A program made the position numbers and the translations under genes. A DNA stretch of 64,000 nt from Sorangium cellulosum (GTDB lineage Bacteria; Myxococcota_A; Polyangia; Polyangiales; Polyangiaceae). This document shows positions 26,330 through 39,465 of the stretch, piece after piece. Position 1 is the first letter of the stretch; each line of letters starts with the position of its first letter. Below the pieces are notes generated by a model. The model saw only the letters and a list, made by a program, of their open reading frames with translations. It did not search any database and was not told the origin of the DNA. The stretch spans positions 1-64,000 of the forward strand of contig DYPH01000017.1 of the NCBI GenBank assembly GCA_020720045.1. Reading direction: 5' to 3'.

Positions 26330-28909
26330 ATGGGCCTGGTTGCAACGCTCGGACGCTTCCTAAACCGCGTCGAACTCGTGCTCGCTGGCGCGGAGGCGGC
26401 CGTTCGCGACGGGGAAGAAGCACTCGCCGCCGGCGATGCGCTCCGGGCCCGCGCCGCCGCCCACCTCGTCCTCGCGCGGGTGCCGAATAGCCCCTTCGGC
26501 CTCGCCCTTTTGGCCGATGCGTGCGCCCTCGGCCGCCTCGATGCCGAACTCTTGGCGACCCTCGAAGCGCTTGCCCAGCGCCTCCCCCAGCGGCCCGATG
26601 TGTGGGCGCGCCTCGCCGAAGCCCGCAAAATCACAGGCGCCCCCGTCGAAGAAGTGCGCGAAGCGTGGCTCGCCGTACTCCCGCTCACCGACCCGTCGAT
26701 CCCCCTCCGCCGCGACGCCCTCCTCGCCCTCGCCGACCTGGATCTTAGCCAAGGGGACGGCGCCCGCGCCGATCTCTGGATCGATCGCCTCGGACCAGAC
26801 GCCACCACGCCAGTGGTCGTGCGGCGCGCCGAAGCGGCCCTCCTTCGCGGGCGCCCGGAAGAGGCGAAAAAGCTCCTCGGCCGCGCGGAAATCGATCCCC
26901 TCGACGGCCGGGTGACGCTCACCTGGGGGCGCGCGCTCGCCGCCCTCGGGGACGCCGATGCGTTTGTCCCGCTGGTACGTGCCCTCGTGCTCGACGCGCC
27001 GGGGGCGAGCGAAGCGCTAAGCGGCGCCCTCGCCTACGTGCCCTCCACCGAAGAGCAACGGGCGCGAATCCGGGCTGCCGTCGATGGCGTCGGTCAAGGG
27101 GATCTGCCGCGGTTTCGTGCTGCGTTTTCGCGCGCTTCCGGCGATCGAGACGGGGCTCGTACGGCCCTCGTCGCCGCCACCCTCCGCGACGAGCCGGGCG
27201 CCGCCCTCGCCCTCGCCGAAGCGGCCCTCGAAGATCGCGATCCGAAGGCCTTCGCCATCGCCTTGACGAAGCTCGCAAACCGCCCCGCCTGGGTCACCTA
27301 CGGCGAGTCGCTCTTCGCCGCGAGCCCGGAGCCGCCCGCCGACGCCGAAGCCGCTTCGGCGACGCTGGACACCCTCGATCGCCTGCCAGCGCCGCCCCTT
27401 TCGAGTCCGCGGGCGGCGGCATCGATCGCCGCCTTCGGGACCGCCCGTCGCCGGGAATGCTTCGCGCTCCTCGCCGGCCCCGCTGGCGTTCGCGAACGGA
27501 CCGTCCCCTGGGACAGCCTCCTCCCCCGCCTCAACCGCCTCGCGCGGGACGCCGGGGAATTGCCGACGCTCGCCGCCCTCGCCGACGTCGCCCAGGAGCG
27601 CCGCCGCCCGGTGCGCGTCGCGATCGTGGGCGAGTTCAACGCGGGAAAGAGCACGTTTATCAATGCGTTGGTCGGTGCCGAGGTCGCCCCGACCGGCGTC
27701 CTGCCGACGACGGCGACGCTCCACCACGTCCAGCACGCCCCCGACCCGCTCGCGCGCATCGCCTTCTACCCGGCCGAGGACGGCGCCGTGCCACCACCGC
27801 GCCTCGTCGCACCGAACGTCCTCCGCGCAACGCTCAAGAGCCTGCCCGATGGCTCGGTCGCCCGTGTCGACATCTTCGTGCCGTTGCCGTCGCTCACGCG
27901 CCTGGAAATCCTGGATACCCCTGGCTTTAACGCCCCCGATCCGCGCCACGCCGCCGCCGCCCGCGATGCCTTTCATGAGGCCGATTTCCTCCTCTTCGTC
28001 TTCGACGCCGGCCAAGCGGGCAAAGCGACCGAGCGCGCCGTGCTCGCCGAAGCGCGCGCGGCTGGCCTCCCGGTGCAGGCATTTGTCAACAAAGCCGATA
28101 GGTTGAATGCCGACGATCTCGCGCGCGTCCTCGCGCAAGTCGCGACGACCCTCGCCGAAAGCGGCGTGACGACGGTGCGTGCGCCGGTGGCGCTTTCCGC
28201 ACGAAAAGCGCTGGAAGCGCGCCTGGCTGGCGGCGACGAAGCGGCGCTGGCGGCGAGCGGATTTGCCGCCGTCGAGCGCTTCCTCGACGAAGTGCTCGTC
28301 GCCGATGGCCCGCGCGTCAAGGAGCGTGCCCTCCGCCGGCGCACGGCGACGCTGGTCACCGGTTTTTCCAGGGCGCTCCGTGCCCGCCGAGCCGCCGAAG
28401 AGGCGGAGGCGACCGCCCGTGAGGCCGCCCAGGAACGCCGCCGTCGCGTCGCTGGCGAACTCGCCCGTCAATCGTCGGAACTCCCTGCCATTTTGGCCGG
28501 CGCCGTCGCCCGAAACGTCGACGCCTGGCGCCGAGAGGTCGCCGCGCTCCCCGCCGATGGCCCCGCCGCGGACGCTGCACTTCAGAATTATCGGGAAGAA
28601 CGGGCGCTTGCCCACCTCGTTGCGCCGCTGACCGCCATCCTGGAACGACTCCTCGATGGCGCCGAAATTCCGACGCTCGCCCGCGATACGGCGCTCGTCG
28701 CGGCGACCCGCGTCTTTGCGCGCACCGCCCCGGCGACCACCGAAGGCCCGTTGTCGGCGGAGCCGCTCACCGGCGCGATCCTCGCCGCGGTGCAGTCGCT
28801 CCTCACCCTGCCGACGGCGACCGCGACGGCGACCCCCCTCGAAACGCGCATCGACGAGCTCGACGCCCTCGCCACGCTCCTCGCGCCGACGCCGAAGGAA
28901 CCTTCATGA
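26330..28909 (+). CDS. Dynamin-like GTPase with N-terminal TPR-like region
   Basis: 859 residues. Residues ~1-400 are Ala/Leu-rich helices with TPR-like spacing (EEALAAGDALRARAAAHLVLARVPNSPFG). The GTPase domain begins near residue 420: G1 GEFNAGKSTF, switch threonines LPTTATLHH, G3 LDTPGF and G4 NKAD, a dynamin/BDLP-type pattern. The C-terminal ~250 residues are long helices (RRAAEEAEATAREAAQERRRR), as in the stalk of bacterial dynamin-like proteins, which bind and remodel membranes. No membrane paddle is obvious. It overlaps the LptA/LptC-like gene by ATGA, so membrane or LPS biogenesis is a reasonable guess. Confidence 0.85.
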   Translation: MGLVATLGRFLNRVELVLAGAEAAVRDGEEALAAGDALRARAAAHLVLARVPNSPFGLALLADACALGRLDAELLATLEALAQRLPQRPDVWARLAEARKITGAPVEEVREAWLAVLPLTDPSIPLRRDALLALADLDLSQGDGARADLWIDRLGPDATTPVVVRRAEAALLRGRPEEAKKLLGRAEIDPLDGRVTLTWGRALAALGDADAFVPLVRALVLDAPGASEALSGALAYVPSTEEQRARIRAAVDGVGQGDLPRFRAAFSRASGDRDGARTALVAATLRDEPGAALALAEAALEDRDPKAFAIALTKLANRPAWVTYGESLFAASPEPPADAEAASATLDTLDRLPAPPLSSPRAAASIAAFGTARRRECFALLAGPAGVRERTVPWDSLLPRLNRLARDAGELPTLAALADVAQERRRPVRVAIVGEFNAGKSTFINALVGAEVAPTGVLPTTATLHHVQHAPDPLARIAFYPAEDGAVPPPRLVAPNVLRATLKSLPDGSVARVDIFVPLPSLTRLEILDTPGFNAPDPRHAAAARDAFHEADFLLFVFDAGQAGKATERAVLAEARAAGLPVQAFVNKADRLNADDLARVLAQVATTLAESGVTTVRAPVALSARKALEARLAGGDEAALAASGFAAVERFLDEVLVADGPRVKERALRRRTATLVTGFSRALRARRAAEEAEATAREAAQERRRRVAGELARQSSELPAILAGAVARNVDAWRREVAALPADGPAADAALQNYREERALAHLVAPLTAILERLLDGAEIPTLARDTALVAATRVFARTAPATTEGPLSAEPLTGAILAAVQSLLTLPTATATATPLETRIDELDALATLLAPTPKEPS

Positions 28910-30317: not shown

Positions 30318-30456
30318 GAAACGTGGTGGCGCGGAGACGGTTGCGCGCCCCGACACGGCGCGACAGTGGTACGGAAGGGATCCTGGGCGGGGCGATTTTG
30401 TCACGTCCCGCGCACCGGCGCGAAGGCTCCGTCTCCTCCGGTATCTTCTGAGTCCC

Positions 30457-31716
30457 ATGAGCGAACGGCTACTGCCTGGTGACATCGTCCTCTTCGACTA
30501 CCGCGTCGTCGCGTTTCTCGGCGCCGGTTCGATGGGGGAGGTTTACCTTGCCCGTAACGTGGGCACCGGAGACCCGGTCGCGCTGAAGGTCATCTCACGC
30601 GATGCGCCGCCCGAGATCATCGCCCGCTTCATGCAGGAGGCGGTGCTCCTCGGAAAAGTCCAACATCCGAACGTCGTCGGCCTCGTTGCCCACGGCTTCC
30701 TGGAAGACGGGTCACCGGCCTATGCCATGGAATACGTTCATGGAAAGTCGCTGGACGTCCTGCTCGCCGAGCACGGCCCCTTCCCATGGCGCGACGCGAT
30801 GCTGATCGCCCTCCAGGTCTTCGACGGCCTGGCAGCGCTCCACGATCTCGGCATCCTCCACCGAGATCTCAAGCCGGCGAACATCGCCGTCGAGGCCGAG
30901 TCAGGGATCGTAAAGGTCCTCGACTTTGGTGTTGCGAAGGCCGAATTCGCGGCGAACAAGAACCTCACCCAGGCCGGCATCGCCCTCGGAACGCCCGCCT
31001 ACATGGCACCGGAGCAGCTCGCCGGCGTCGCCGAGGCGCGGTCCGACTTGTACTCGGCGGCGATCGTCTTTTATGAGCTCGTCACCGGCGACGTCCCCTT
31101 CGGCGAACTCGGCGAGAAAGCCCTGTATAAGCGGCTCTTTTCGCCGGTTCCGCCGCTCCGTGAGGCTCCCGGGATGCCCCACGTGCCGGACGCGGTCGTC
31201 GACATGGTCGCGAGGATGCTTGCGACCGACGTAAACACGCGATTTAGCGACGCCCGCGTCGCCATCGCCGCCTTCGAACATGTGCTCGCCGAAGCGGCCC
31301 GCGCAGAAGTCGGGGACGACGGGGCGGTCGATTCGGACCGCATGGAGCGCACCCTACCCGGCCTCGGCGCCCTCGCTGGCGACTCAGCCGGTGGCGACGG
31401 CGACGGCAAATGGCTCCTTGTCTTGCGGGTAGCCGACGCCGTCCTCAAGAGCGCCCATGAGCGCGCATTTCTTCGGGAAATACTCGTGGGCAAGGGCATC
31501 GGCCACCCGAAAGGGAACCGCATCTTCGTCGCCCTCTTCGAGACGCCGGCCCTCCTCGATTCCTTCCTCCGCACCGTCGCCCAGCGGTACGCGCCCGACA
31601 TGCAAGCGGATGCCGAGCGGGTCGCGACCGATTTTGAGCTGACGAACGAAGCGCTCGCCGGGGCCGCCCCGCTGCCGACCCAGCTCGCGCTGATGGTCGA
31701 GCGCCTCTCCGCTTAG
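30457..31716 (+). CDS. Ser/Thr protein kinase (Hanks type), cytoplasmic
   Basis: 419 residues. The kinase domain occupies residues ~15-285: FLGAGSMGEVYLARN, VALKVIS, HRDLKPANIA, LDFGVAKAEF, GTPAYMAPEQL, and ARSDLYSAAIVFYELVTG. All catalytic residues are present. The C-terminal ~120 residues (DSDRMERTLPGLGALAG, then LLVLRVADAVLKSAHERAFLREIL) form an unrecognised domain, and no membrane helix is seen. Upstream in-frame ATGs lie in GC-rich sequence after lptB; the ATG at 30457 fits the kinase start. Substrate unknown. Confidence 0.9.
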   Translation: MSERLLPGDIVLFDYRVVAFLGAGSMGEVYLARNVGTGDPVALKVISRDAPPEIIARFMQEAVLLGKVQHPNVVGLVAHGFLEDGSPAYAMEYVHGKSLDVLLAEHGPFPWRDAMLIALQVFDGLAALHDLGILHRDLKPANIAVEAESGIVKVLDFGVAKAEFAANKNLTQAGIALGTPAYMAPEQLAGVAEARSDLYSAAIVFYELVTGDVPFGELGEKALYKRLFSPVPPLREAPGMPHVPDAVVDMVARMLATDVNTRFSDARVAIAAFEHVLAEAARAEVGDDGAVDSDRMERTLPGLGALAGDSAGGDGDGKWLLVLRVADAVLKSAHERAFLREILVGKGIGHPKGNRIFVALFETPALLDSFLRTVAQRYAPDMQADAERVATDFELTNEALAGAAPLPTQLALMVERLSA

Positions 31717-31892: not shown

Positions 31893-34112
31893 GTGAAGAT
31901 TCAACAGTCGCAGCAGCTCTCCCAGCAGCTCGTCATGACGCCCCAATTGCAGCAGGCGATTCGCCTCTTGCAGTTGACCCACGCCGACTTAGTGGTCGAA
32001 ATCGAAAAAGAATTCGACACGAACCCCCTCCTTTCCGTGGAAGGGAGCGGCCCGAGCGCCGAGCTTGCGTCGCTCTCCAAGGGGGTCGTTCGCGATCACC
32101 CCCTCGGAGAAGACGAGCGTTTTCAGGGCTCTATCCGCGAGGCCGAGAAGCTCCGTTCGGAAGCGACCGTCGAGCGCCTCGACGACCGCCACCGCGCCGC
32201 CGACGGCAACAGCGCCCAGGGGGAGGCGAAAGCGGTCCGCGACATCGAGTGGGACCAGTACGTGGAAAATCGCGTACTTCAAGCGCCGGCGGGCGGCGGT
32301 CGTGGCGGCTTCGAAGAGCTGCCCCCCATCGAGCAGAATCTCACACGCAAGGAATCGCTCGTCGATCACCTCCGTTGGCAGCTCAAGATGAGCGATTTCA
32401 ACGAGGCCGAACGCGCCTTTGCCGAAATTGTACTCTCAAGCCTCGACGACAACGGCTTCCTGGATCTCAAGTCCGGCTACCGGGCGAGTATCCAAGATCT
32501 TCGCGATTTTCAGAGCAAGAACCCGACGGAGAAGAACCCGGATTTCAACCTCGGGATCATCTACGAACAAATGGGGAACTTCCACGCGGCAACGCTCGCC
32601 TGGAAGCGCTACCTTGGCTCAGATATTAATGAAAATGAACGCACGCTCGCCGAGGGGCTGTTCGCCCGTGTGGCCGCAGCGGCAGCCTCGGTAAAAGCGC
32701 TCGTCACCGAAATCGGGAAGACCCTCGACGAGAAAGCGGCCGCCGACGAGTACGTTTCCCGCGACGGCCTCCGCGAGGTGCTCGCGAAGCTCCGCAGCGG
32801 CGACTACGACGAGAATGCCGTCCGCGATGGCGTCGCGTTCCTCCGCGAACTCGACGGAAAGGCCGATGCTCGTATCGCGCGCGTCCTCGAAGACGAACTC
32901 GCAAACATGGCCTCCCTCCGTGTCGACGTCCCGCCGACGGAAGCCGGCTTGCTCCTCTCGCGCGCGCTGATGTTCGCCCGAAATGGGGCCTTCGTCGAGG
33001 CGGTCCCCTGTTTGAAACGCTACCTCGGCGGCGACTTGGAGCCCCACGAGCGCACCCGCGGTGAGCTCGTCCTTGCACGTGCTCGCCACTTCGCGGAGGG
33101 GGCGGCGGACCTCCAAGTCTCGCCCGACGAAGAAATCTCCCTCGAATGGATCGCCGAGCAATCGGGTCTAAACCCCGATGATGCGGAGGAGGTCCTCAAG
33201 CTGATGCAGCTGTGGGATCCGACCGGCTGTTGCGCCCGCGATCTTCGAGAAAGCTTGATGATTCAAGCGGAAGTGTACGGCTTTGAGGACATCGAGTTGG
33301 CGGTGATCGATCGCCACATGTCGAACCTCGAAAAGCACAACTACAACGCGATCGCCAAAGACCTAAAGATCTCCGTCGAGGAGGTCTACGAGGCGGTCAA
33401 GGAGATCCAGAAGCTCGAATCCCGCCCGGCCCGTAACTTCACCGACTACGACGAAAAATCGATCGCCATCACGCCGGACGTCTACGTCGTAAAGGATGAG
33501 AAGACCGGCGGCTGGCGCGTTCAAGACAACGACCGTGGCGTCCCCCGACTGTTCGCGAACAAAGAGCTCTTCGAGCAGCTGGCGACTGCCGATCCGGCAA
33601 AGCGCGCCATCCTCCAAGAGAAATGGAAGAACGCCCAGTGGCTTGTCAAAGCCTTGGAAGAGCGTCGAAAGACGATCACGCGTGTCATGGAGTCGATCGT
33701 CGCCCGCCAACAGGAGTTCTTCGAAAATGGGACGTCGTTCCTGCGTCCGATGATCCTCCGCGACATCGTCGAAGATTTCCAAGAACGCTACGACCGTCAA
33801 ATCCACGAGTCGACGATCAGCCGCGTCACGTCGAACAAGTACGTGCATACGCCCCACGGCATTTTTGAGTTGAAGCACTTCTTCAACTCGCCGATCCGCC
33901 GGCAGTCCGAGGAGGACATCGCCTCGGAGAGCGTGAAACGCGTCATTCGGAAGATCATCGACGACGAGGACAAGAAGTCGCCGCTCTCCGATCAGGCGAT
34001 CGTGGAGATTCTCGCCAAGGGCGAGGGCATCGTCATTGCCCGCCGCACCGTCGCTAAGTACCGAGAAATGATGGGAATTCTTCCGTCGAGCAAGCGAAAG
34101 AAGCACTTCTAG
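31893..34112 (+). CDS. rpoN: RNA polymerase sigma-54 factor with a large TPR-like insertion
   Basis: 739 residues, against about 480-510 usually. Region I is canonical (QSQQLSQQLVMTPQLQQAIRLLQL); an acidic region II follows. The core-binding part starts normally (FAEIVLSSLDDNGFLDLK, to residue ~193), is interrupted by ~220 residues, and resumes at ISLEWIAEQSGLNPDDAEEVLKLMQ and DPTGCCARDL. The HTH (ESTISRVTSNKYVHTPHGIFELKHFF) and RpoN box ARRTVAKYRE (716-725) are intact. The insertion holds two related helical modules sharing KRYLGxD....ERT. Such a factor needs enhancer-binding ATPases. I chose GTG 31893, where the family begins. It is first in the rpoN-hpf-pts block and followed by a hairpin. 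Confidence 0.93.
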   Translation: MKIQQSQQLSQQLVMTPQLQQAIRLLQLTHADLVVEIEKEFDTNPLLSVEGSGPSAELASLSKGVVRDHPLGEDERFQGSIREAEKLRSEATVERLDDRHRAADGNSAQGEAKAVRDIEWDQYVENRVLQAPAGGGRGGFEELPPIEQNLTRKESLVDHLRWQLKMSDFNEAERAFAEIVLSSLDDNGFLDLKSGYRASIQDLRDFQSKNPTEKNPDFNLGIIYEQMGNFHAATLAWKRYLGSDINENERTLAEGLFARVAAAAASVKALVTEIGKTLDEKAAADEYVSRDGLREVLAKLRSGDYDENAVRDGVAFLRELDGKADARIARVLEDELANMASLRVDVPPTEAGLLLSRALMFARNGAFVEAVPCLKRYLGGDLEPHERTRGELVLARARHFAEGAADLQVSPDEEISLEWIAEQSGLNPDDAEEVLKLMQLWDPTGCCARDLRESLMIQAEVYGFEDIELAVIDRHMSNLEKHNYNAIAKDLKISVEEVYEAVKEIQKLESRPARNFTDYDEKSIAITPDVYVVKDEKTGGWRVQDNDRGVPRLFANKELFEQLATADPAKRAILQEKWKNAQWLVKALEERRKTITRVMESIVARQQEFFENGTSFLRPMILRDIVEDFQERYDRQIHESTISRVTSNKYVHTPHGIFELKHFFNSPIRRQSEEDIASESVKRVIRKIIDDEDKKSPLSDQAIVEILAKGEGIVIARRTVAKYREMMGILPSSKRKKHF

Positions 34113-34259: not shown

Positions 34260-34291
34260 TCATCGACGCTGCTGACATTCCAGGAGGCCGA

Positions 34292-34639
34292 ATGAACATT
34301 GCGATCACGTTCCGTCAGATGGATGCGACCGATTCTGTGAAGGGCTACGCGACGGAAAAAGTGGGGAAACTTCAGAGGTTTCTCCGCCAGCCCATGAAAG
34401 GGCACGTCACTGTCAGCGTTCAGACCGACCGCCTCCATCACGTTGAAGTAGACGTCGTTTCCGGCGGCAGCCGCTTCCATGCCACGGAAACCAGCTCGGA
34501 CATGTACGCCTCGATCGACGCCGTCGCCGACAAGATCGAGCGCCAGATTCGGTCGTCGAAGGAAAACCTGAAGGGGCAAGAACGGGCCTCCCAGCGGCTC
34601 CTCCCCGACGTGAGTGACGACGAAGACGGCGCTCTCTGA
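34292..34639 (+). CDS. hpf: Ribosome hibernation-promoting factor (short HPF/RaiA type)
   Basis: 115 residues. MNIAITFRQMDATDSVKGYATEKVGKLQRFL is the typical HPF start, and HVTVSVQTDRLHHVEVDVVSGGSRFHATETSSDMYASIDAVADKIERQIRSSKENL matches the core beta-alpha fold that binds the 30S mRNA channel and stops translation in slow growth. It lacks the long-form C-terminal dimerisation domain; the tail is acidic. A strong AGGAGG site precedes the ATG. It follows rpoN as in many proteobacteria, and a terminator follows it. Confidence 0.92.
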   Translation: MNIAITFRQMDATDSVKGYATEKVGKLQRFLRQPMKGHVTVSVQTDRLHHVEVDVVSGGSRFHATETSSDMYASIDAVADKIERQIRSSKENLKGQERASQRLLPDVSDDEDGAL

Positions 34640-34656
34640 GCGACGTAAGCCGTGAC

Positions 34657-34702
34657 AAAAGGCGCCCCTTCCGACTATCGGAGGCGGGCGCCTTTCGTTT
34701 TT
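34657..34702 (+). terminator. Terminator between hpf and ptsN
   Basis: AAAAGGCGCCC / GGGCGCCTTT with an inner TCCG/CGGA stem, then CGTTTTT. Strong, so ptsN onward depends on read-through or its own promoter. Confidence 0.85.
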
Positions 34703-34747
34703 GTCGCCCCCGCGTTCCCCCATGACCGAGCCGAGCTGAGCCTACGA

Positions 34748-35206
34748 ATGCTCCTTCGCGAAATTCTCTCCCCGGACCGCGCAACGCGCATGGACGCTCG
34801 CGATTTGACCAAATCGCAGGCACTTGCGTTGGTCGCATCGCTGCTTGCGCGACAGACGAACGTCCCGGAAACCGAAATTCTGGAAGTCCTGCACGCGCGA
34901 GAAAGTCTGCAATCGACAGGCATCGGAGACGGCGTCGCCATCCCGCACGGCTCCCTCCCGAACGTGGAGCAGCACGTCGCGGCGCTCCTCGTCGCGCCAA
35001 ATGGCGTCCCCTTTGACGCCATCGACAACGCCCCGGTGAACCTCTTTTTTGCAGTGCTCGGTCCACGGGCCGCGTCCGGGGAGCACCTGAAGATTCTTGC
35101 GCGAATTTCGAGACTTCTGCGGCGTCCCGCCTTCCGCGAAACGCTCCTTCGCGCCCCCGACGGAGCCAATATTTTCCGCCTCGTGGAAGCCGAGGAGGGG
35201 GGATGA
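34748..35206 (+). CDS. ptsN: PTS EIIA-Ntr (PtsN)
   Basis: 152 residues beginning MLLREILSPDRATRMDARDLTK. The phosphorylatable His is in the family motif GIGDGVAIPHGSLPNV (about residue 66), and LFFAVLGPRAASGEHLKILARISRLL matches the EIIA-fructose/Ntr fold. It receives phosphate from HPr and signals nitrogen and potassium state in other proteobacteria. ATG 34748 fits the family start. It overlaps hprK by ATGA. Confidence 0.92.
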   Translation: MLLREILSPDRATRMDARDLTKSQALALVASLLARQTNVPETEILEVLHARESLQSTGIGDGVAIPHGSLPNVEQHVAALLVAPNGVPFDAIDNAPVNLFFAVLGPRAASGEHLKILARISRLLRRPAFRETLLRAPDGANIFRLVEAEEGG

Positions 35207-36363
35207 GCGGCGACGCCGGTCCCGTCGAAGAGGCGCGCGCCGTCCCTGTGGCGGCCTTTTTGGCAGACCCGCGCACCGCCGCCCAGCTTACGCTCGTCGC
35301 GGGCCATGCCGGCCTCGCGCGCCCGCTCTCCCACGCGCGCGTCCAGAAGAACGGCCTCGCCTTTGCGGGGCATTTTCATGGCGTCGTGCCCAGTCGGATC
35401 CAGGTCGTCGGCGAAACCGAGCAGACCTTCCTCGAAGCGATGACCGCGGCCCAGCGGGCTGAGGCCTGCAAAGGCCTATTTTCCCTTGGGCTTTCCTGCG
35501 TTGTCGTCACAAAAACGGGGACGCCAAGCGCCGACCTGATCGAAGCGGCGGAAGCGACACAGACGCCGCTGCTGGTAGGCGGCGAGCGCTCCAGCGCCAC
35601 GATCAACGCGATCCACGCAACGCTCGACGATCTTCTCGCGCCAACGACTCGAATTCATGGCGTTCTTGTCGATGTCTTCGGGGTCGGCCTCCTGCTCTTG
35701 GGCAAGAGCGGCATCGGCAAAAGCGAATGCGCCCTCGAACTCGTGCTGCGTGGGCATCGCCTTGTGGCCGACGACGTCGTCCAGATCGACTGGCGACCGC
35801 CGGGCATGGTCTTCGGCGAGCCGGCGGAACTGCTCAAGAATCACATGGAGATTCGAGGCCTTGGCATTCTGAACATCAAGGACATGTTCGGCGTGACCGC
35901 GGTCCGCGAACGGAAGCGCATCGACATTGTCACGCAGCTCGTCGAGTGGCACGACGGCATGGTCGTCGACCGTCTCGGCATCGACGATCGCTACCAGGAT
36001 ATCCTCGGCGCCAAGGTCCGCGAACTGACCGTCCCCGTGCAGCCGGGTCGCGACATGGGTTCCATCCTTGAAATTGCTGCGCGAAACGAGCTCTTGCGGC
36101 GTGCCGGCATGAACAGCGCCCGCGATTTCGTCGCCCGGCTCGCGGCGCGACGAAACGCCCCCCAACGGCGCCGCTACGACACGGTGAAGACGCTCCAGCG
36201 ACTGACCCCCGAGGAACTGGCCGAGGCAGCGGAAGCAAAAGAGCGCTACGACGGCGAGTCGTGGAGCGGGTCGGGCGCAATCAGCGTACCGACGCCCCCA
36301 AGCAGCGCCCACGCCGTCGACCGCGGCGCAAGTTCCCGAGGCGGCGGAAGAGAGGACCGATGA
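35203..36363 (+). CDS. hprK: HPr kinase/phosphorylase
   Basis: 386 residues, longer than the usual ~310-330 owing to a C-terminal low-complexity tail (ISVPTPPSSAHAVDRGASS). N-terminal domain ~20-150, then the kinase domain with Walker A LLGKSGIGKSECALELV near residue 170, GHRLVADDVV, and the signature HMEIRGLGILNI. It phosphorylates and dephosphorylates Ser46 of HPr in Firmicutes and many proteobacteria; the HPr in this operon keeps that Ser. It overlaps ptsN and rapZ by four bases. Confidence 0.93.
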   Translation: MSGDAGPVEEARAVPVAAFLADPRTAAQLTLVAGHAGLARPLSHARVQKNGLAFAGHFHGVVPSRIQVVGETEQTFLEAMTAAQRAEACKGLFSLGLSCVVVTKTGTPSADLIEAAEATQTPLLVGGERSSATINAIHATLDDLLAPTTRIHGVLVDVFGVGLLLLGKSGIGKSECALELVLRGHRLVADDVVQIDWRPPGMVFGEPAELLKNHMEIRGLGILNIKDMFGVTAVRERKRIDIVTQLVEWHDGMVVDRLGIDDRYQDILGAKVRELTVPVQPGRDMGSILEIAARNELLRRAGMNSARDFVARLAARRNAPQRRRYDTVKTLQRLTPEELAEAAEAKERYDGESWSGSGAISVPTPPSSAHAVDRGASSRGGGREDR

Positions 36364-37382
36364 GCGAGCAGCACGAGCAACGGACCCATGTCGTGGTGGT
36401 AACCGGCGTCTCTGGCGCCGGAAAATCGACGGTTCTTCGCACGTTGGAAGATCTCGGTCACTTCTGCATCGACAACCTCCCCACCGTCCTCGCCCCGCAA
36501 ACCCTCGAGCTATGCGCCCGTGGCGGAATTACCCGCGTGGCGCTCGGGATCGACGTGCGCGTACGCGCCTTTCTCGGCACCGCCGCCGACGAAGTGGATC
36601 ACCTCGTTGATGGCGGAAGACGCGAAGTTTCCATCGTTTTCTGCGACGCTTCCGAAGAGACGATCCTCCGTCGCTTCGGCGAAACGCGGCGCCCCCACGC
36701 GCTGGCGACCGTCGAAGGGACCTCGGCGCTGGCCGTCCTCGACGGCCTCCACATCGAGCGGGAACGGCTCGCCCCCCTACGGGAGCGTGCAACGCATGTC
36801 TTCGATACCACACACCTTTCCGTCCATGAACTCCGTCGCGCCATCGTCGCGACCTTCGGCCCGGCATCGCCGCACGCCCCGCATATGGCGGTCCGAATTG
36901 TGTCGTTCGGCTTTAAGTACGGCGCCCCCGTCGATGCCGACCTCGTCTTTGACGTCCGCTTTCTCGAAAACCCCTACTTCGTCCCCGAGCTGCGCCCGCT
37001 CGCCGGGACCGACCCACGGGTCGCCGGCTTCGTCCTGAACTTGCCGGAGACGCAGCCGTTCCTCGAGAAAGTATTGGATTTGCTACGTTTTACCCTACCA
37101 AAGTACGAGCGCGAGGGGAAGAGTTACCTCACGGTAGCGATCGGATGCACCGGCGGGCGCCACCGCTCTGTTGCACTCTCCGAGGTCATTGGCCGCGCGC
37201 TCAATGCGCAGGTCGTCCACCGGGATGTCGCCCGTGAGCACGGCCACGCCATCAACGCCCCCCCGGCAAGCGCGACGGGCCCTTACTCGGCGAGTGCCGC
37301 CGTCGAGCACGCCCTCGCCCTCTCCCCGCTCCCCCAGCCGGTTTCCGGCGACGGCGGCGGCCCTTCTGGAGCCTCCCGATGA
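36360..37382 (+). CDS. rapZ: RapZ-type nucleotide-binding adaptor (YvcJ family)
   Basis: 340 residues, slightly longer than RapZ (~284). N-terminal P-loop VVTGVSGAGKSTVLRTLEDLG, Walker B-like region VSIVFCDASEETILRRF with ETRRPH, and C-terminal domain with SFGFKYGAPVDADLVFDVRFLENP and the cluster GCTGGRHRSVAL. In E. coli RapZ links glucosamine-6-phosphate sensing to decay of GlmZ small RNA; no such RNA is apparent here, so the role may differ. The last ~35 residues (PPASATGPYSAS...) are low complexity. Coupled to hprK and ptsH by ATGA overlaps. Confidence 0.92.
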   Translation: MSEQHEQRTHVVVVTGVSGAGKSTVLRTLEDLGHFCIDNLPTVLAPQTLELCARGGITRVALGIDVRVRAFLGTAADEVDHLVDGGRREVSIVFCDASEETILRRFGETRRPHALATVEGTSALAVLDGLHIERERLAPLRERATHVFDTTHLSVHELRRAIVATFGPASPHAPHMAVRIVSFGFKYGAPVDADLVFDVRFLENPYFVPELRPLAGTDPRVAGFVLNLPETQPFLEKVLDLLRFTLPKYEREGKSYLTVAIGCTGGRHRSVALSEVIGRALNAQVVHRDVAREHGHAINAPPASATGPYSASAAVEHALALSPLPQPVSGDGGGPSGASR

Positions 37383-37654
37383 CCGCCCTGACGAAGACCT
37401 TCCCTATCATCAACGCCCTCGGGCTCCACGCGCGCGCCGCGACGAAGCTCGTCCAGACCGCCTCCCGATTCCCCTGCGAGGTCGAGATTGAGCTCGACGG
37501 CCAAAAGGCGAACGCAAAGAGCGTGATGGGCGTCCTCTTGCTCGCCGCCGGACGCGGCACCGCCGTCACGGTCACCGCCCGCGGCGAAGGGGCGGAGGCC
37601 TGCTTGACGGCGCTGGAAACGCTGATTGCCGATCGATTCGGAGAGGGGCAGTGA
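37379..37654 (+). CDS. ptsH: Phosphocarrier protein HPr (NPr)
   Basis: 91 residues. The active-site His lies in NALGLHARAATKLVQ (about residue 17), and the regulatory Ser in KANAKSVMGVLLLAA (about residue 48) that HprK would phosphorylate. It carries phosphate from EI to EIIA-Ntr. It overlaps rapZ and ptsI by four bases. Confidence 0.95.
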   Translation: MTALTKTFPIINALGLHARAATKLVQTASRFPCEVEIELDGQKANAKSVMGVLLLAAGRGTAVTVTARGEGAEACLTALETLIADRFGEGQ

Positions 37655-39465
37655 CCGAGCGGCCCGAGCTCCGTCTGCGAGGGATTCCGGCGGCGCCGGG
37701 GATCGCCATCGGGGCTGCCTTGGTCATGGGCGATGCCCGTGCGGTCGCCGTCCAGCGCGCGATCGACGAGAGCGAAATTGCGCAAGAACTCGACCGTTTC
37801 GAAGCCGCCAAGGCTGCGGCCCGCATCGAGCTCCGTCGCGTCGCGGAGCGGACGGACTTCAATGCCAACGCCCCGGTCGCCGCCGAGTTCGATGCCAACG
37901 CCTTCGCGGGCGGCGATCCGGCAGCAATTCTCGAAGCCTATGTGGCGATGCTCAACGATCCCGAGCTGGACGAGCGCGTACGGCGACACATCGCCGTGGA
38001 TCGACAGAACGCGGAAGCGGCGCTCTGCACAGCAAGTGACGAGATTACCAAGCTTTTCTCCGCTGCAAAAGATGCTTACATCCAGGAACGGCGCCACGAC
38101 GTCGCCTTTGTCTGCGACCTCGTCCTCCGCGCCCTCGTCCAAAAAGAGCCGGAACGGGGCCCGCTAGCGAGTACCGCCACCATCGTCCTTGCCCGCGACC
38201 TCTCCCCGGCCGACACCGCCGGCGTCGTCCGCGAGCGCGCCCTCGGCTTCTCGACGGAGCGAGGGTCCCGCACAAGCCACACGGCGATCATGGCGCGAGC
38301 CCTGGAGATGCCTGCTGTTTTGGGCGTTGAAGGACTCCTGCGTGCCGTCACCACCGGCGACATGGTCGTCGTAGACGGCTTCCGCGGCGAAGTGATTTTG
38401 CATCCGTCGGCCTCGACGCTAGCCGCCGCCGAAGCCCGTCTTTTTGCCCACCACGCGTTTCTCCGGACCCTTCGCGAAACGAACGGCGGCGACGCGGGGA
38501 CCGCCGACGGCGTCCGTATCGAACTCTTGGCGAACGTCGAACTCGCCGCCGAAGCGCGGGTCGCCGAAGGGCACGGCGCCGAGGGAATTGGCCTTTTTCG
38601 CACCGAATTCCTCTACATCGACCGGAGCACCCCGCCGACGGAAGACGAGCAGTTCGCCATCTACCGAGAGACGATCCTGGCGATGAACGGGAAGCCGGTC
38701 GTCCTGCGGACTTTCGACATCGGCGGCGATAAGTTTGCAAGTTCCTTTGAAGTTCCGCCAGAACTGAACCCGGCGCTCGGCCTGCGTGCCGTCCGCCTCG
38801 CCCTCTCCCGGCCGGAGGTGCTTCTCGTGCAGCTCCGCGCGATGGCGCGGGCGAGCGCCTTCGGGGATCTACGGATCCTCGTGCCGATGGTGAGCCAGGT
38901 CGCGGAAATGAAGAAAGTCCGCGAACTCCTCGCTCAGGCGGTCGCCGAAATTCGCGCCCGCGGCGAGGCGACCGCCGACACGATTCCCCTCGGGATGATG
39001 ATTGAGGTCCCCAGCGCGGCGATTTTGGCCGACGTCTTCGCCCGCCACGCCGATTTTTTCAGCCTCGGGACGAACGACCTCGTCCAGTATCTCCTGGCCG
39101 TCGACCGCACAAACACCGAGCTCGCTCCCCTCGCCTCCCCCTATGATCCTGCGGCGTTACGCCTGATTGCCAGCGTGACGCGCGAGGCCGATTCCGCAGG
39201 AATTCCGCTCTCCATCTGCGGCGCTATGGCCTCCGATCTCCACGCGCTCCCGCTGCTGGTCGGGCTTGGGCTCCGGAAGCTTTCCATGGAACCGGCGACA
39301 ATCCGGACCGTGAAGGCGGCGCTCCGGCGCCTCGATGCCGCGACCTGCCGCACCCTCACCACGCGGGCGCTCCAGGCGGAAAGCGCGACCGAAGTACGCG
39401 CAATGGTTCACGAAGCGACCGAATCGCTCCTGTCGGACCTCCTTGCGCTCTGCGCAGCGACCTGA
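37651..39465 (+). CDS. ptsI: PTS enzyme I (phosphoenolpyruvate-protein phosphotransferase)
   Basis: 604 residues. RGIPAAPGIAIGAALVMG opens the N-terminal domain; the phosphorylated His is in ERGSRTSHTAIMARALEMPAVLG; the PEP-binding barrel has GIGLFRTEFLY, VLRTFDIGGDKF and SLGTNDLVQYLLAVDRTN with SICGAM. No GAF domain is present, so it is EI-type rather than the full EI-Ntr form. It starts at GTG 37651 inside the ptsH stop (GTGA). No sugar-specific EIIB or EIIC appears near, so the pathway ends in PtsN and regulation, not sugar uptake. Confidence 0.95.
   Translation: MTERPELRLRGIPAAPGIAIGAALVMGDARAVAVQRAIDESEIAQELDRFEAAKAAARIELRRVAERTDFNANAPVAAEFDANAFAGGDPAAILEAYVAMLNDPELDERVRRHIAVDRQNAEAALCTASDEITKLFSAAKDAYIQERRHDVAFVCDLVLRALVQKEPERGPLASTATIVLARDLSPADTAGVVRERALGFSTERGSRTSHTAIMARALEMPAVLGVEGLLRAVTTGDMVVVDGFRGEVILHPSASTLAAAEARLFAHHAFLRTLRETNGGDAGTADGVRIELLANVELAAEARVAEGHGAEGIGLFRTEFLYIDRSTPPTEDEQFAIYRETILAMNGKPVVLRTFDIGGDKFASSFEVPPELNPALGLRAVRLALSRPEVLLVQLRAMARASAFGDLRILVPMVSQVAEMKKVRELLAQAVAEIRARGEATADTIPLGMMIEVPSAAILADVFARHADFFSLGTNDLVQYLLAVDRTNTELAPLASPYDPAALRLIASVTREADSAGIPLSICGAMASDLHALPLLVGLGLRKLSMEPATIRTVKAALRRLDAATCRTLTTRALQAESATEVRAMVHEATESLLSDLLALCAAT

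Follow-up and report, generated by a model that had tools for sequence, protein, structure and literature searches.

A TPR-like insert divides the core-binding domain of sigma-54 in Sorangium cellulosum

Introduction

Sigma-54 is usually treated as a protein of fixed architecture that is controlled externally by AAA+ activators. An uninterrupted core-binding domain (CBD) is its usual state, and no defining rule of the family. The CBD sits at the RNA exit of RNA polymerase, against the α C-terminal domain, the β flap and the β′ zinc finger, and must be displaced before promoter escape (PMC10786286, PMC7057263). A survey of sigma-54 in 1,414 organisms classes RpoN by three standard domains and, in the part of its text available to us, mentions no insert; the same source cites the factor as essential in Myxococcus xanthus (PMC12316311).

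Fusion of a sigma factor to a TPR-type region is known from ECF42, where a TPR-rich C-terminal extension is reported to be essential (PMC8999054). The locus described here resembles ECF42 in that a sigma factor is joined to a TPR-type region of ∼200 residues through which input via protein contact is proposed. The two differ in that ECF42 belongs to the sigma-70 superfamily and carries its TPR region at the C terminus, whereas here a TPR-like domain lies inside the CBD of a sigma-54; in addition, the function of the ECF42 region was shown, while the present insert is known from sequence. Only sigma-54 domains were found in the protein, and no sigma2/sigma4 arrangement followed by a C-terminal TPR region, which places it outside ECF42. 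Compared with ordinary sigma-54 (TIGR02395; PF00309, PF04963, PF04552), it shares the three domains, the RpoN box, the rpoN-hpf-ptsN gene order and a score above the equivalog cut-off, but differs in that a TPR-like domain of 221 residues splits the CBD and that, in this genus, the turn of the helix-turn-helix (HTH) is longer by six residues. A sequence-only reading of the locus knew of no description of the architecture, in agreement with our search of the open-licence literature, where no prior description of a TPR region or an insertion associated with sigma-54 was found. The arrangement is thus regarded, provisionally, as not described.

Results

A complete sigma-54 with a divided core-binding domain

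The window, the whole 64,000-nucleotide stretch analysed here (contig DYPH01000017.1, positions 1 to 64,000), contains rpoN, present in a single copy in the genome (6.3 Mb in 357 contigs), as a profile search returned one match to region I, the activator-interacting domain (AID). The features of the gene are as follows.

31893..34112, + strand: rpoN, encoding a sigma-54 of ∼739 residues from a GTG start (TIGR02395; Pfam AID, CBD and DNA-binding domain, DBD)
31905..32036, + strand: region I, activator-interacting domain (PF00309; E 3.1e-15 in the genome search, 1.6e-14 in the protein scan)
32328..32468, + strand: CBD, first piece (PF04963 positions 2-48; Pfam profile)
32472..33134, + strand: TPR-like insert of 221 residues (open frame; TPR_9 match; homologues in genomes G001, G018, G079, G012, G059 and G060; dN/dS)
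33135..33563, + strand: CBD, second piece (PF04963 positions 48-183; E 7.8e-34)
33609..34103, + strand: Sigma54 DNA-binding domain with HTH (PF04552; E 1.2e-56)
33780..33797, + strand: extension of the HTH turn by six residues (QERYDR), from alignment with relatives
34038..34067, + strand: RpoN box ARRTVAKYRE, intact in alignment with relatives

The product scored 381.9 bits against the NCBIfam sigma-54 equivalog TIGR02395 (cut-off 277.35), and Pfam profiles placed region I, CBD and DBD one after another in a single frame. As the earlier reading had stated, this frame is uninterrupted, being free of stops to 34112. Translation likely begins at GTG 31893 rather than at TTG 31848, since the resulting N terminus, VKIQQSQQL, aligns with MEIKQQL of relatives. 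The PF04963 match falls into two pieces flanking the insert, which together still exceed the cut-off. A division of the CBD between FLDLK and ISLEW by about 219 residues (32471-33127) had been proposed; the split itself is borne out, while its extent is exactly 221 in-frame codons (32472-33134) between DDNGFLDLK and ISLEW, as a reading from 32471 is shifted by one base and meets stops, whereas the frame from 32472 has none. Insert-free relatives hold ∼15 linker residues at this site, so the net gain is ∼205 residues. The hallmark regions, previously called canonical, are so in region I and the RpoN box, but the HTH turn carries the six-residue insertion (RDIVEDF-QERYDR-QIHESTISR). Among 75 matched rpoN sequences the spacing of this turn is 7 residues in 70, 9 in one and 13 in four, all of which belong to the present genus (g1), to which the QERYDR-type extension is confined in this set. 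Judged by domain content, the insert-bearing protein is a functional sigma-54, with activator-contact, core-binding and promoter-recognition regions intact, and at least 29 enhancer-binding ATPases were scored in the genome.

Selection on the insert

The abrupt splitting of a conserved domain could indicate that the insert is absent from the working protein, the extra codons being an assembly join, an intein or an intron. Such an explanation is exceedingly improbable. An independent second genome of the genus (G001, contig JAAFHJ010000094.1) bears an insert that is 91% identical in DNA and 98.6% identical in protein, with hardly any amino-acid replacements, and an insert at the same residue occurs in five genomes of two further genera. 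Relatives had been named as the check on a join, and these genomes rule it out. For an intron or intein, Rfam gave no match in the gene, no intein profile was found among the Pfam matches of the product, and the insert ends in QVSPDEE before ISLEW, lacking a C-terminal HN motif and displaying TPR homology instead.

The frame is open and selection acts at the codon level. Between the present genome (G000) and G001 the insert shows, by the Nei-Gojobori method, dN 0.010, dS 0.454 and dN/dS 0.022, indicative of purifying selection. Ratios in the other insert-bearing genera are 0.21 for the g18 pair and 0.06-0.24 for the g12 pairs, also purifying, compared with 0.04-0.12 for the core, although dS above 1 in many g12 and g18 comparisons makes these values rough. 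The insert evolves faster than the core (68-72% against 84-94% identity), and resembles it in GC and third-position GC. We thus regard the insert, on its open frame and substitution pattern, as a real and selectively maintained part of the sole sigma-54 of this genome. Divergence between the two g1 genomes is uneven along rpoN (31950-33150 compared with L059), at 1-3% in the first part of the gene and 5-16% in the insert, and a recombination tract is a possible cause.

A duplicated TPR-like module

The insert comprises two related modules separated by a middle part, with the following components.

32472..32705, + strand: TPR-like module 1, similar also to one module of the family's secreted TPR proteins (profile and homology searches)
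32604..32669, + strand: repeat copy 1, KRYLGSDINENERTLAEGLFAR, identical to copy 2 at 12 of 22 positions
32706..32933, + strand: helical middle part, in which no repeat was detected (by hhalign it matches neither module; helices in a low-confidence model)
32934..33089, + strand: TPR-like module 2 (hhalign against module 1, probability 95.4, E 1.8e-8; TPR_9 stretch 145-197)
33015..33080, + strand: repeat copy 2, KRYLGGDLEPHERTRGELVLAR, identical to copy 1 at 12 of 22 positions

The repeat had been noticed by eye, and both its identity (12/22) and its distance (137 residues) proved exact. Shuffling the insert 300 times gave a repeat score of 11 once and of 9 or lower in all other cases. Profile-profile comparison of the modules across three genera (hhalign, probability 95%, E 1.8e-8) shows that the duplication is common to all three insert-bearing genera.

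The TPR-like character claimed for the insert is likewise supported. The isolated insert of this genus matches Pfam TPR_9 at 35.9 bits (cut-off 35.0), a match that falls below the cut-off in the full-length protein, and TPR matches in the other two genera are sub-threshold. A leave-one-out profile built from those two genera recovers the insert of this genus end to end at 81 bits, against 48 bits for the best free TPR protein. Structure models are all-helical and of low confidence (insert, pLDDT 54; full-length protein, 48), having been built from only two and six sequences. A fold search with the low-confidence model gave nothing at or below E 0.001, and searching solved structures with the insert sequence gave none up to E 0.1. 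These data establish TPR-like homology; a TPR fold is predicted from the sequence, since both models are poor and the fold search yielded no significant match.

Secreted TPR proteins of the family (L005, L006, L015 and others) align with module 1 end to end (HMM E ∼1e-15 for the best matches). They possess a single module, with a signal peptide and membrane segments recognized by eye, but have neither a sigma part nor a second module.

Gene neighbourhood

The genes on either side of rpoN are as follows.

30454..31716, + strand: Ser/Thr protein kinase, directly upstream of rpoN (PF00069, E 1.3e-46)
34286..39465, + strand: hpf, ptsN, hprK, rapZ, hpr and ptsI, which form the usual surroundings of rpoN whether or not it has the insert

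The suggestion that the insert recruits a product of the PTS block finds no support, as hpf-ptsN-hprK follow rpoN in all seven insert-bearing genomes and adjoin it in most insert-free relatives as well; the PTS neighbours were consequently rejected as the reason for the insert. The kinase lies between lptB and rpoN in both g1 genomes and is absent from that place in close relatives, while g12 has a different gene upstream of rpoN; it is a candidate partner only. A dynamin-type GTPase of 859 residues (26330-28909) is encoded upstream of the lpt genes and is found near rpoN in several relatives.

Distribution of split core-binding domains

Among 108 genomes of the family, 105 of which gave a CBD match, a TPR-like insert occurs at the same residue of a syntenic rpoN in seven, which belong to three genera: G000 and G001 (g1), G018 and G079 (g18), and G012, G059 and G060 (g12). 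Each of the seven was read directly, and a single CBD match spanning the site was scored as insert-free. Identity between the inserts of different genera is 25-30%, and both modules are retained across the three. Conservation in relatives, which had been put forward as support for a real domain, is therefore seen in related genomes, but the pattern is patchy over three genera and does not describe one clade. A separate insertion of ∼20 residues is present earlier in the CBD of one rpoN (L066, genome G061).

In a survey of the order (184 genomes) the only other split CBDs were in family f6, where they occur in most genomes; the four f6 genes that were read (L054, L055, L130, L132) contain a charged, low-complexity insert of 45-85 residues in the same CBD loop. 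A sample of the phylum Myxococcota (210 genomes) revealed split CBDs in family f24 too, eight of which (L131, L134, L135, L137-L141) carry a different insert of ∼75 residues in this loop, with the core ...LYWLTDDEM..W..LAE..G...E.Y.ANSTR... In the one f24 sequence scanned Pfam matched the CBD only, and TPR homology was absent. The f6 and f24 inserts thus share the site with the TPR-like domain, but differ from it in length and, for the scanned f24 type, in lacking TPR homology.

Because unrelated inserts are found at this loop in other families, the presence of an insert need not by itself mean function. The loop may simply accept extra sequence, the insert being kept folded while having no regulatory role, an explanation that its faster evolution relative to the core would also fit. 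The range of dN/dS (0.02-0.24), the keeping of both modules in three genera at 25-30% identity and the retention of the insert in a degenerate paralogue (see below) argue against such tolerance, which we consider unlikely.

Evolutionary origin of the insert

In a tree of 68 rpoN cores from which the insert columns were removed, the insert-bearing genera occupy three places, g1 with G029 (support 98/84), g12 with G107 (96/77) and g18 with G070 (90/90), on branches that are long (1.59, 1.72 and 0.57 for g1, g12 and g18, respectively). The distribution could reflect one ancient gain that was lost many times, segments of rpoN exchanged laterally, or a similar TPR unit captured on separate occasions. 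We prefer a history in which the two-module unit arose once and was later exchanged or lost, a view held with as much doubt as confidence. A single clade of insert-bearing genera is rejected on the whole core (AU p 0.031), and the rpoB tree, in which g1 again stands beside G029 (100/97), separates the genera and requires three changes, while a single gain would call for 13 losses across the sampled core tree. With the CBD columns alone one clade is not rejected (AU p 0.50), as exchange would allow; however, the C-terminal part alone does not reject it either (p 0.36), the single parts being simply weak.

Profiles built from two genera recover the insert of the third over its full length (53-90 bits), and match its second half at about 30-36 bits among the matches listed. 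Since the left-out insert, second half included, is found by a two-genus profile, the two-module unit is common to the genera, with a second half shared beyond chance, in favour of one origin. Conversely, module 1 scores 43-50 bits with free TPR proteins and 46-48 bits with the other inserts, being as near to the former as to the latter, which counts against it; the secreted single-module TPR proteins of the family are a possible source of this module.

A degenerate sigma-54 paralogue in genus g12

All three g12 genomes encode a second sigma-54-like protein of 459-487 residues (L158:9268-10728, L159 and L160). The protein opens with CBD-type sequence and carries an insert that matches the TPR unit, followed by the second part of the CBD and a truncated DNA-binding domain that ends before the RpoN box; region I is absent. 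The paralogue of G012 lies among genes matching DotU, TssF and, weakly, IcmF (a T6SS-like locus), and in G059 and G060 TssF-type matches are located on the same contigs as the paralogue. A link between the insert and T6SS was rejected, however, as TssF had no match in g1 and no g18 genome was among those with a match. A search of the present genome with the g12 paralogue found nothing beyond rpoN. As the paralogue keeps the CBD and insert but is devoid of region I and the RpoN box, it may possibly compete for core enzyme or for a partner.

Discussion

In alignment with enterobacterial sigma-54 chains the insert follows residue 208 of the query, equivalent to chain position 177 of a PDB construct with 20 extra residues and hence to approximately residue 157. 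As this position is within the CBD, the domain should project from the RNA-exit face; known holoenzyme structures would place it outward from a surface loop, leaving unobstructed the surfaces that contact activator and DNA.

Most TPR-type domains serve to dock other proteins. For this reason, and because the TPR extension of ECF42 is reported to be essential, the insert is best read as a docking arm located close to the RNA exit, a reading whose chances we put at about even. A partner protein would bind the arm and thereby alter the competition of sigma-54 for core, its retention or release, or its recruitment, providing an input separate from the enhancer-binding ATPases. Partner binding or sensing of this kind is a reasonable conjecture for a TPR-like sequence. 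The identity of the protein as a sigma-54, the ordinary synteny, the at least 29 enhancer-binding ATPases, purifying selection and the shared duplication all favour a docking arm. Counting against it are the long branches of insert-bearing cores, the poor structure models, and the faster divergence of the insert than of the core, which implies loose constraint on much of its surface. The search identified no partner protein of the insert and no gene co-inherited with it.

Alternatively, the domain could act in cis as a spacer or clamp that binds RNA polymerase or sigma-54 itself, candidate contacts being the α C-terminal domain, β flap and zinc finger, and adjust the affinity for core or the release of sigma during promoter escape with no outside partner. 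The location of the CBD at the RNA exit (PMC10786286), the altered cores on long branches and the six-residue HTH change in this genus would suit such a role. Conversely, the insert drifts fast while the core is conserved, which is unexpected for extensive contact with a conserved enzyme, and TPR-like modules are mostly docking folds; a cis function therefore appears doubtful.

Extending the docking-arm reading, sigma-54 may be a regulated receptor in several myxobacterial genera, in which a TPR-like arm at the RNA exit would take a second input beside that of the enhancer-binding ATPase, and the truncated TPR-bearing paralogue of g12 would be a competitor or decoy; this combined scheme is put forward tentatively.

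The arrangement, which is also present in two distant genera of the family, suggests an undescribed form of sigma-54 control. In at least three genera a TPR-like domain has been added to the domain with which sigma-54 grips core, and in other parts of the phylum different inserts occupy the same loop. Should the arm dock a partner, it would represent a new control point on a global regulator, and the insert would make it testable how far sigma release depends on the CBD at the RNA exit.
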